Origin: Nitrosopumilus sp.
Lineage (GTDB): Archaea; Thermoproteota; Nitrososphaeria; Nitrososphaerales; Nitrosopumilaceae
Reading direction: 5' to 3'
Length of the DNA stretch: 64,000 bases
Assembly (NCBI GenBank): GCA_029862745.1
Contig: JAOTWS010000003.1
Coordinates: 186,001 to 250,000 of the forward strand
Positions 4,536 to 11,711 of the stretch are shown piece by piece (the first letter of the stretch is position 1; the number at the start of each line of letters is the position of its first letter). The translations under genes and the position numbers were made by a program. The notes beneath the pieces are model-generated. The model was given only the letters and a program-made list of their open reading frames with translations. It did not search any database and was not told the origin of the DNA.

Positions 4536-5705
4536 TTGAATGATCTTATTTTAGACTCTGAGGAATTAAGTCGTGTTTTAGAGGATAAAGAAATTTCACA
4601 GCAAGACATCATTGAAGTGTATAAAAATTCAATAGAGAATCCTGATGAACTTTTTTCTACTGCGCAGGAATTGAGAGAGAAATTCAAGAAGAATTCAGTT
4701 ACATTTTCGAAAAAAGCATTTTTCAATATAATTAATCTCTGTAAAGATACCTGTTCATATTGCACATACAAATCTGAGCCAGGAGAACAAAAACTTTCTC
4801 TAATGTCAAAACAACAAATTTCAGAATTACTACAACTTGCAAAAAAATACAGGTGCACTGAAGCACTTTTTGTTACAGGTGAACAGCCAGAACAAAAATA
4901 TCAAGAAGCAAGAGATTGGTTAAAGAAAAATGGATTTAGTTCAACGGCAGAGTATCTAATTCATGCATCAGAACTAGCATTGGAATCAGGATTGTTCCCT
5001 CACACTAATGCAGGAAACTTAAATTTTGAAGAGATGAAGGAGTTAAAGAAATCAAATGTATCAATGGGAATAATGCTTGAAAACATTAGCGAGAGATTAA
5101 CAAAAAGAGGAATGCCGCATTATTTGGCAGCAAGTAAAAGACCAAAAGCAAGATTAGAAGTGCTAGAGAACTCTGGAAGATTAGGAATACCTATGACTAC
5201 AGGAATACTAGTAGGAATAGGAGAGACGATGCATGAAATCATAGACTCCATATTTGCAATAAAACATTTACATCAAAAATATGGGAATATTCAAGAAATT
5301 ATTTTACAAAATTTTCAACCTAAAGAAGACACTTTAATGAAAAATGAACCATCAGCTGATGAAAAATATTTCAAGATAGTGGTTGCGTTAACAAGAATAA
5401 TCATGCCAAAAATGAACATACAAATCCCACCAAACTTATCTCCGAGATCATATCAGAGTTTCTTATCAGTTGGAATTAATGATTGGGGTGGAATCTCACC
5501 ACTTACTCCAGATTTTGTAAATCCTGAATTTTCTTGGCCAAAAATCAATGATGTCGATAAGAATTCCAAAAAAGTAGGATTTGAATTAAAATGCAGATTC
5601 CCAGTATATCCCGAATTTTTTTCATTTATTAGTAAAGAGTTAAGAGACAAGATGATAACAATTGAAAATGATGAGGGACTAGTAAAAGAGGAGTATTGGA
5701 AATGA
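4536..5705 (+). CDS. cofG: FO synthase subunit 1, CofG
   Basis: Radical-SAM enzyme of coenzyme F420 synthesis. With CofH it makes 7,8-didemethyl-8-hydroxy-5-deazariboflavin. The CxxxCxxC cluster motif is Cys69, Cys73 and Cys76 (CKDTCSYC). Length (389 aa) and the GILVGIGET and ILQNF(Q)PK segments match CofG. The start is TTG at 4536. The stop overlaps the cofH start by four bases (ATGA at 5702-5705), showing translational coupling. Ammonia-oxidising archaea are known to make F420, so the gene fits the host. Confidence 0.95.
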   Translation: MNDLILDSEELSRVLEDKEISQQDIIEVYKNSIENPDELFSTAQELREKFKKNSVTFSKKAFFNIINLCKDTCSYCTYKSEPGEQKLSLMSKQQISELLQLAKKYRCTEALFVTGEQPEQKYQEARDWLKKNGFSSTAEYLIHASELALESGLFPHTNAGNLNFEEMKELKKSNVSMGIMLENISERLTKRGMPHYLAASKRPKARLEVLENSGRLGIPMTTGILVGIGETMHEIIDSIFAIKHLHQKYGNIQEIILQNFQPKEDTLMKNEPSADEKYFKIVVALTRIIMPKMNIQIPPNLSPRSYQSFLSVGINDWGGISPLTPDFVNPEFSWPKINDVDKNSKKVGFELKCRFPVYPEFFSFISKELRDKMITIENDEGLVKEEYWK

Positions 5706-9887: not shown

Positions 9888-10205
9888 ATGAAGAAAGTAG
9901 AAGCTATTGTTCAAAGTGAAGTTTCAAAACAAGTAGTAAACGCAATTAGAAAAATAGGAGTTGAAGGAGTAACAATGATTCAATCATTAGGACAAGGTGA
10001 AGGCGAACGTCCAGAAATAGGAGGACATCAAATTGAGTTCAATTCAACGGATGTGGTAATGACCGTAGTTCCAGATTCTAAGATCAAAGAAGTAATCACA
10101 GAGATCATCAGAGTTTCTCACACAGGTAAAAAAAGTGATGGTAAAATATTTGTCACCAATATAGAGGAATCATATGATATTGCTACAAAAGAAAAATCAC
10201 AGTAA
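9888..10205 (+). CDS. Divergent P-II-family signalling protein
   Basis: A 105-aa ferredoxin-like P-II/GlnB-fold protein. It begins MKKVEAIVQSE and keeps IGVEGVTMIQSLGQG before the T-loop and VPDSKIKEVI after it, as in P-II proteins. The T-loop is short and has no conserved uridylylated tyrosine, so regulation by uridylylation is unlikely. P-II proteins sense ATP/ADP and 2-oxoglutarate and usually control nitrogen metabolism. No amt or glnA gene is adjacent; the neighbour is a small winged-helix regulator. It has its own promoter region (AT-rich, about 9845-9865). Confidence 0.85.
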   Translation: MKKVEAIVQSEVSKQVVNAIRKIGVEGVTMIQSLGQGEGERPEIGGHQIEFNSTDVVMTVVPDSKIKEVITEIIRVSHTGKKSDGKIFVTNIEESYDIATKEKSQ

Positions 10206-10416
10206 TGAGGCAGAAAATTAGATCATTAGTTATTCACAGCCTCTATTTTTTTCACAAATAATTTTGAAAAAAAAGCCCTATTTATGAGAGTAGGTTGTTA
10301 TCAAGCATAAAAATTAGATCGCAATTAAGCAAAAACACAATTATCAATGAAATTAGGTATAAAAAAATCAGATGTAAAGATCAATAAAACTCAAGTTAAA
10401 GACTAATAAGGTAATG

Positions 10417-10433
10417 TACCGTACTATACGGTA
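10417..10433. promoter_or_regulatory. Palindromic operator overlapping a start codon
   Basis: TACCGTACTATACGGTA consists of perfect 7-base arms around a CTA centre. Its last base is the A of the first ATG of the downstream winged-helix gene. A factor bound here would block transcription start of a leaderless mRNA. Autoregulation by the encoded protein is the simplest reading, but this is inferred. Confidence 0.55.
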
Positions 10434-10801
10434 TGATGCGAGCAAGACTAACATATGTCCCGCTAGAGGTAGCAGATCAATTCGAGGATTTCATCATAAA
10501 AAGAGATGAGCAAATTCTCGATGCAGTAAAAGCAAGGACAAGAGATTACAGTACATTGTCACTGTTAAAATTATTGTATCAGCTTAAAGGAAATCCCATG
10601 ACATTTTCTGATTTGTATTCAAAATCAAAAATCAGAATGAAAAAATCATTCCTAAGCTATCTACATCTATGTGTGGATTACAAATTTATAAAAAAAGAAG
10701 CAGTTGGATCAAACATGATATACACGATTACAGACAAAGGAAGGATCATGTTAAATCTCTTTATACATAAAGAGAATTACCAAAATAGTGCAACTGTTTG
10801 A
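10433..10801 (+). CDS. Small winged-helix transcriptional regulator
   Basis: A 122-aa protein with a winged-helix domain at about residues 35-108: helix LLKLLYQLKG, recognition region FSDLYSKSKIRMKKSFLSYLHLC, and a beta wing NMIYTITDKGRIMLNLF. The N-terminal 30 residues (RARLTYVPLEVADQFEDF) are separate and could dimerise. No ligand domain is present. Two ATGs in tandem (10433 and 10436) are possible starts. A perfect palindrome ends on the first ATG, suggesting self-repression. It lies downstream of the P-II-like gene, about 230 nt away. Confidence 0.78.
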   Translation: MMRARLTYVPLEVADQFEDFIIKRDEQILDAVKARTRDYSTLSLLKLLYQLKGNPMTFSDLYSKSKIRMKKSFLSYLHLCVDYKFIKKEAVGSNMIYTITDKGRIMLNLFIHKENYQNSATV

Positions 10802-10985
10802 AAACAATTCCAAAAATTAGCATTGTAAGATAGAGCCAGATTGGAATGTTAATTTTTATTTAATTTTGATCATGTATAAACTGAAATTTGGGTAGAAGTA
10901 AAAGAAAAGTACTGAAAAGCAACTGACTCAAAGCATTCAAAAGTTAGTGGTTAAAGCAATTAAACATAATAAAAAAAGTAAAAAG

Positions 10986-11711
10986 ATGCAAAGAGAGTTT
11001 CCAGAAGCAGAAGTATTTGAGTTAAAGAAAATAGAATTAAAGAGTCCAATAATTTTTGCAGGTTTTGTAGGTGCAGGTCTTGTAGGCCCAGTTGCGATAA
11101 ACCATATAATTATAGAGTTAAAAATGTCAGAGATCGGAGTGATGAGATCAAAGTATCTTCCACCATCAACAGTTTTTATGAGAGGTAGATTACGTCATCC
11201 ATTCAGATTTTATGCAAATCAAGAAGGAACAATTTGTACGATAATTTGTGAGATAACATTGCACATGAAGGGATTGTATTCACTAGTATCTTCAATTTTG
11301 GATTGGGCAGAGCAAAAAGGTTCTAAAGAAATAGTGATTTTAGATGGAGTTGCAAGTACAGAACACGATGATAAGGCATATTGTGCAGCTGAAGAAGATC
11401 TAGTAAGAACTATGGCAGAAAAAGACATCAGAATGATCCCACAGGGATTCATCACAGGTATACCAGGAGGCATACTAAATGAATGTCTAGTAAGGGAAAT
11501 TCAAGGTTTAACGTTATTAGCAAAAGCAAATAGTGTATCACCAGATTCTGCCGCAGCTGCAACATTAATTGAAGCACTTAGCAAATTCTATGATATGAAG
11601 ATCGATACATCAGAGCTAAGAAAAGATAAAGATAGGATTCATTCAGAATTTAGTAAATTATCTCAGAAATATGTAGAACATAGAGAAGAGATAGCCGGAA
11701 TGTATATGTGA
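10986..11711 (+). CDS. PAC2-family (proteasome assembly chaperone-like) protein
   Basis: An archaeal PAC2/COG2047-type protein related to eukaryotic proteasome assembly chaperone 2. The core begins PIIFAGFVGAGLVGPVAINHI, continues with CEITLHMKGLYSLVSSILDWA and EIVILDGVAS, and has the glycine-rich GFITGIPGGILNEC segment. The last 40 residues form a charged helix. I use ATG 10986 because an ATTAAAC box lies about 25 nt upstream. An in-frame GTG at 10947 would add 13 mostly basic residues and remains possible. No proteasome gene is adjacent. Confidence 0.85.
   Translation: MQREFPEAEVFELKKIELKSPIIFAGFVGAGLVGPVAINHIIIELKMSEIGVMRSKYLPPSTVFMRGRLRHPFRFYANQEGTICTIICEITLHMKGLYSLVSSILDWAEQKGSKEIVILDGVASTEHDDKAYCAAEEDLVRTMAEKDIRMIPQGFITGIPGGILNECLVREIQGLTLLAKANSVSPDSAAAATLIEALSKFYDMKIDTSELRKDKDRIHSEFSKLSQKYVEHREEIAGMYM

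Follow-up and report, generated by a model that had tools for sequence, protein, structure and literature searches.

A stretch of 64,000 nucleotides (the window) from Nitrosopumilus sp. (assembly GCA_029862745.1, contig JAOTWS010000003.1, positions 186,001 to 250,000) was analysed for a palindrome that meets the start codon of a small winged helix-turn-helix (wHTH) gene, and the same site was followed through the genome and its relatives. The palindrome, located at positions 10417-10433, reads TACCGTACTATACGGTA, i.e. TACCGTA-CTA-TACGGTA, with 7-base arms that are perfectly complementary and CTA between them. Its final base, 10433, is the A of the ATG of an open reading frame at 10433-10801. 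An earlier reading of the window, made from its letters without database searches (the sequence-only reading), had described a perfect palindrome with 7-base arms whose last base opens the wHTH gene, and the sequence agrees.

The site and the winged-helix gene

Each arm, TACSGTA, is self-palindromic about its central base. The candidate operator (10417..10433, no strand assigned) is therefore best viewed as two palindromic boxes 10 bp, or one helical turn, apart, and it was delimited by its sequence, its genome copies and its conservation. Both boxes had the same orientation in 5 of 41 wHTH sites. A TATA-like element, ACTAATAAG, lies upstream on the forward strand (10402..10410), at −31 to −23 from the ATG, and corresponds to a conserved TTAATAAgGTAAT consensus in 41 wHTH promoters. 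The promoter consensus was built from sites selected by exact match, which biases its operator columns. The position of the TATA-like element would place the transcription start at the wHTH ATG. A degenerate third box, TAAGGTA, was located 10 bp upstream of the operator on the forward strand (10407..10413), where it overlaps the TATA-like element; it appeared as a 3-mismatch match at 10407-10423 and in the upstream consensus.

The open reading frame (10433..10801, forward strand) encodes a small winged-helix protein of 122 amino acids (aa), the proposed autorepressor. AlphaFold placed a confident winged helix at about residues 38-114, with a block-mean predicted local distance difference test score (pLDDT) of 86-92 for residues 41-110. 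In structure comparisons residues about 37-122 matched PadR/MarR-like chains at Z 10-12, including archaeal RosR and Sso10a-2 and the plasmid protein AspA. The modelled fold agrees with that of the PadR, MarR and ArsR families. As the PadR/MarR-like winged helix is a common fold, it does not pin down the family, and no Pfam or NCBIfam family, PadR, MarR and ArsR profiles included, reached its cut-off for the 122-aa protein. A profile search of solved structures gave AspA as the best match (E 0.13), and PHROGs gave no match. Residues 1-37 were strongly conserved yet poorly modelled. A ribbon-helix-helix was considered for this N-terminal part; no Pfam match to it was found, and the model there is of low confidence (pLDDT 58). 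Judged from the model, the winged helix is shared with the PadR/MarR-like regulators RosR, Sso10a-2 and AspA, and the conserved 37 N-terminal residues set the protein apart from them. Residue C80, an invariant cysteine, is close to the end of the helix at residues 70-82.

Promoters that carry the site

The only exact match in the window was 10417-10433 itself. With up to three mismatches allowed, three matches were found, one of them overlapping the operator, against 0.39 expected by chance. The 1.81-Mb genome contained four exact TACSGTA-N3-TACSGTA sites, and the exact reversed-pattern control gave none. The core 9-mer GTACSGTAC, present in the window as GTACCGTAC (10416..10424, no strand assigned), also had four exact copies in the genome, one inside each of the four operators, against 13 for its reversed control. 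This 9-mer was rarer than its reversed control in seven other searched genomes too (3-19 against 29-43). Because it is underrepresented in those genomes as well, its rarity alone is no evidence.

The three further sites of the source genome precede radA and the genes of two tiny proteins. The radA copy (C5:5132-5148) ends on the A of the radA ATG, and the gene was identified by NCBIfam NF003301 (E=1e-149) and Pfam Rad51 (E=1.3e-87). The RadA of this genome carries a C-terminal low-complexity extension with EVDTTVKTP repeats (L006:6150-6287), and the length of the RadA frame differs among relatives. A third copy (C6:71235-71251) stops 4 bases short of the ATG of a 35-aa protein, which shows a CxxC...HxxxH pattern, and the fourth (C1:98669-98685) stands 34 bases ahead of the ATG for a 56-aa CxxC...CxxH protein whose gene is divergent from trpE. 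Neither small protein reached a Pfam or NCBIfam cut-off; their invariant cysteine and histidine residues point to putative zinc binding. Of 38 promoters of the 35-aa gene, 33 have a further inverted repeat, GGTNAY-N4..8-RTNACC, on the upstream side of the TATA element (L008:about 4690-4720), which suggests a second regulator of that gene. The pairing of trpE with the CxxC...CxxH gene was constant, trpE lying within 1.5 kb in 32 of 33 loci (L005:3220-4888). We nevertheless rejected the idea that the fourth site serves trpE, since that site directly abuts the TATA region of the CxxC...CxxH gene.

Among 121 searched genomes of the family Nitrosopumilaceae, 112 contained exact sites, and the reversed control gave one match in each of six genomes. 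For 47 family genomes, picked for at least one site plus good completeness, 150 exact sites were recorded and 134 were read for the downstream gene; the other 16 are in G014, G025, G048, G068, G069 and G093. As many as 132 of the 134 preceded members of four gene families only: radA (37), the 35-aa CxxC...HxxxH gene (37), the CxxC...CxxH gene of about 56 aa (33) and the wHTH gene (25). A separate tally of 158 sites mixes loci found by the motif with 30 loci fetched by the wHTH protein and thus overcounts the wHTH gene, and the count of 134 is the clean one. The sequence-only reading had proposed a search for the palindrome in the whole genome and its relatives, and that search converged on four promoter types.

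The site also kept its place within each promoter type. Its last base was the A of the ATG in 32 of 40 radA loci and in 33 of 41 wHTH loci, and at the 35-aa gene it stopped 4-5 bases short of the ATG in 36 of 38 loci. At the CxxC...CxxH gene it stood flush against the upstream edge of a CCTTTATAT-like TATA region, as seen in 33 promoters. The distance from TATA element to site was fixed within each of the four types. The same sequence-only reading had argued that in a leaderless gene the palindrome covers the transcription start, a strong position for repression. The position does suit such repression, and its place on the start codon is conserved among relatives.

A core-promoter or RNA element instead of an operator would be expected to adjoin TATA boxes and start codons, as this motif does. 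We rejected this reading, including that of an RNA hairpin, as highly improbable: the genome has just four exact copies, 132 of the 134 sites read fall at four gene families, and the site of the fourth promoter lies upstream of the TATA element, where it would be outside the transcript from that start.

Conservation at the wHTH promoter was followed separately in loci gathered through the wHTH protein and therefore free of motif selection. The best 80 of 181 relatives, all at least 74% identical and by record title mostly from Nitrosopumilus, Nitrosarchaeum and other Nitrosopumilaceae, supplied 79 loci with upstream DNA, and all 79 promoters kept an exact or near-exact site. Of these, 62 had a 14/14 site and 11 a 13/14 site, and in both groups the last base was the A of the ATG. 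Of the other six, five had a 4-base spacer (read by eye) and one stopped 3 bases short of the ATG. For more distant members, matched genome positions showed the exact site at the wHTH gene in 30 of the 47 genomes. The other 17, together with G044, G102 and G117, provided 20 further wHTH promoters. Every one of these has a site of 13/14, or of 14/14 with the spacer lengthened to 4 bases, that lies on the start or no more than 9 bases from it, and in no case did any of 200 shuffles score as high. In the G004 promoter the second box is degraded and the score leans partly on the upstream TAAGGTA box. The palindrome is thus kept in orthologous promoters, 79 of 79 and 20 of 20, where its absence would have spoken against an operator.

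Distribution of the site and the wHTH gene

A class-wide draw of 400 genomes comprised 221 of the family (Nitrosopumilaceae by record titles) and 179 others. Exact sites were found in 205 of the 221 family genomes against 8 of the 179 others. The wHTH gene was detected in 197 of the 221, with two weak matches outside the family; these counts include weak matches such as G256 and G347 (E about 1e-3). The totals 150, 221, 205 and 197 were counted by hand, and comparison of site with gene assumes that both searches drew the same 400 genomes, as the handles indicate. Nine family genomes at least 90% complete were without the wHTH gene, and four others without a wHTH row (G038, G047, G393 and G400) were at most 69% complete. 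All seven family genomes that were at least 90% complete and had no exact site (G001, G015, G023, G033, G049, G211 and G222) were without the wHTH gene. Double sites track the wHTH gene well, but single boxes mostly stay where it is missing.

Six wHTH-less genomes (G001, G015, G033, G211, G222 and G225) were examined at 37 GTACSGTAC loci, and no recurrent new target or regulator gene was found there; 31 of the 37 matches overlap some open frame when frames of 60 aa or more are counted, though this criterion is weak. One match in G001 lies 74 bases before an open reading frame that looks GINS-like to us. In G015 six GTACCGTAC matches lie in similar repeat copies (L337, L338, L342, L344, L345 and L347), with TATA-like sequences on either side of the box and adjoining frames that vary between copies. 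The radA promoters of G222, G225 and G211 (L265, L269 and L270) have GTACCGTAC upstream and TACCGTAC downstream of a TATA-like stretch, a split arrangement that differs from the double site. In viral contigs a site with a CYA spacer plus ATG was found in two loci, which share one stretch, with the match inside a long coding frame that is unrelated to the four genes, and no wHTH relative was confirmed among 57 pattern matches.

We interpret the palindrome as an operator through which the 122-aa wHTH protein represses its own gene, as part of a compact regulon that includes radA, and give this reading a probability of about 0.75. The sequence-only reading had called the palindrome an operator, and the site behaves as one in its conservation, its few copies and its specific promoters. 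An autoregulated regulon would have a conserved palindrome in the promoter of the regulator itself, as found in all 79 and all 20 promoters. It would also have copies of this palindrome at a few further promoters that relatives share, as found for 132 of 134 sites at four gene families. Of the four targets, none but the wHTH gene encodes a DNA-binding regulator. That the wHTH protein is the binder of the double box appears probable to us; our confidence goes no higher because single boxes remain in wHTH-less genomes.

Several observations weigh against this interpretation. With up to two mismatches in the genome, reversed controls exceeded the pattern (6 versus 15 per strand; 9 versus 36 in a separate search). 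The relaxed pattern never exceeded its reversed control, so the signal is confined to exact sites. Two of the 134 read sites (L087 and L123) precede genes outside the four families, and the site of the fourth gene lies upstream of TATA, a position compatible with activation too. Five genomes, all at most 85% complete (G102, G117, G265, G387 and G392), have the wHTH gene and no exact site, G102 and G117 having a 13/14 site at the wHTH gene. The wHTH-less G223 and G376, each 90% complete, retain three and two double sites, possibly because of assembly gaps. Finally, in genomes with no wHTH gene detected, the promoters of radA and the CxxC...CxxH gene, and that of the 35-aa gene if the genome has one, mostly retain a lone TACSGTA box, a degenerate one or a degraded pair near TATA. 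Such boxes may be read by an undetected diverged regulator or by a second factor that recognizes single boxes, or they may be relics.

The persistence of single boxes at the same promoters is what a more widely kept transcription factor reading the TACSGTA box would leave, with the wHTH gene as a mere target or as a partner that makes the double site necessary. We consider this unlikely, given that double sites vanish without the wHTH gene in all seven zero-site family genomes at least 90% complete and that the 37 GTACSGTAC matches of the six wHTH-less genomes revealed no recurrent regulator gene.

With the wHTH protein as the binder, it would recognize two boxes TACSGTA-N3-TACSGTA (N4 in some relatives). 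At the wHTH, radA and 35-aa promoters the site lies directly downstream of TATA and reaches or nearly reaches the start codon. Archaeal RNA polymerase depends on a stretch of promoter that begins at the TATA box and runs slightly beyond the start site. A site occupied at −16 to +1 would exclude the polymerase, so that repression is the natural reading for these three genes, and we regard the wHTH protein as probably a repressor. At the CxxC...CxxH promoter the site abuts the upstream TATA edge and overlaps the expected transcription factor B (TFB) recognition element (BRE); a protein bound there would block TFB, or conceivably activate. For this gene repression is likely and activation possible. 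A dual regulator, repressing where the site covers the start and activating the CxxC...CxxH gene from upstream of TATA, would account for the fixed position flush against the CCTTTATAT-like region in 33 promoters, but the overlap with the expected BRE makes steric repression equally workable, and we hold dual action to be possible but the less favoured outcome. The proposed regulon would comprise four transcription units: that of the regulator, with a PAC2-family gene close behind it in many relatives, that of radA, and those of the two tiny putative zinc-binding proteins. Its purpose would be the control of recombination or repair.

Neighbouring genes and relation to known systems

Upstream of the wHTH gene lies a P-II-like gene (9888..10205, forward strand; PF00543, E=1.6e-17), a neighbour in the source genome and not a conserved part of the system. 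A gene of the DUF6659 family (PF20364; 9396-9770, reverse strand) stands beside it and was near the wHTH gene in 9 of 62 long-flank loci. The sequence-only reading had taken the P-II neighbour as a hint of nitrogen or energy control. Joint control with the adjacent P-II protein has this adjacency in its favour; a P-II gene occurred in the flank of only 5 of 71 wHTH loci with at least 1 kb upstream (within the best 80 of 181 relatives), and no nitrogen gene was found among the recurrent targets. We therefore dropped this link, to which we give next to no chance.

The conserved neighbour is downstream. A PAC2-family gene (10947..11711, forward strand, conserved start probably 10986; PF09754, E=1.7e-39) encodes a protein ending in MYM. 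Among 76 loci whose downstream flank spans 1.5 kb or more, 71 have such a gene in the flank, within the same best 80 of 181 relatives. Of 73 loci, 38 have no more than 30 nt between wHTH stop and PAC2 start and 21 have over 100 nt; in the window the distance is about 184 nt. The PAC2 proteins end in hydrophobic-Tyr-Met in all 72 loci with a readable end, an end that we take to resemble the HbYX (hydrophobic-tyrosine-any residue) proteasome-docking tail. Ten of 12 genomes without a detected wHTH gene were also without a close PAC2 relative. As the two genes are adjacent, assembly gaps could explain part of this joint loss (G223, G319 and G376).

The wiring is similar to that of LexA and the SOS response, in which a DNA-binding protein regulates itself through an operator at its own gene and has another at the recA homologue (PMC2246294, PMC2556686). 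Here the site lies on the ATGs of both the wHTH gene and radA, with binding by the wHTH protein presumed. The systems differ in that the self-cleaving S24 peptidase domain of LexA was not found in the 122-aa protein, for which hmmscan against Pfam up to E=1 listed four families, none of them peptidase or LexA, and in that four transcription units are proposed here against about 40 genes. We regard the LexA circuit as similar in wiring only. Archaea are described as being without LexA and the classical SOS regulon, an SOS-type response without LexA still being possible; Sulfolobus showed no strong induction of repair genes after UV, and a coordinated SOS response is apparently restricted to bacteria (PMC2246294).

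In Halobacterium a TTTCACTTTCA motif is common to radA1 and three other UV-B-induced genes, and a regulator has been proposed (PMC2556686). The likeness lies in a short promoter motif that links a radA gene with few others in an archaeon; those genes were measured as UV-B-induced, whereas the four-gene regulon here is read from DNA sequence. The Halobacterium motif was rejected as identical to ours. In 39 radA loci, up to 120 bases ahead of the site were compared with TTTCACTTTCA. The motif was not found, the best stretches agreeing in 6-8 of 11 bases, a comparison made with no chance control.

PbaB, an archaeal PAC1-PAC2 homologue, is a proteasome activator (PMC3605417). The conserved downstream gene belongs to the PAC2 family too, and the hydrophobic-Tyr-Met ends of its products resemble a proteasome-docking tail in sequence. 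The activity of PbaB led to the idea that the repressor may be removed by the proteasome. Tentatively, and as a case that we think unlikely, one may envisage an independently evolved archaeal counterpart of SOS. The wHTH repressor would keep down its own gene, radA and the genes of the two mini zinc proteins until DNA damage lifted the repression, possibly via PAC2/PbaB-aided proteasomal removal.

The host group consists of widespread and abundant marine ammonia-oxidizing archaea. Among the titles and abstract starts listed from the open-access literature for the motif, the regulator or radA control, none showed this motif or regulator. For the regulation of recombination genes in archaea, the finding supplies a candidate regulator, an exact operator and a short list of targets. 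The gene radA has been used as a neutral single-copy reference in marine archaeal transcriptomes (PMC8670421). Because radA appears to carry a dedicated operator in these archaea, such use calls for caution.
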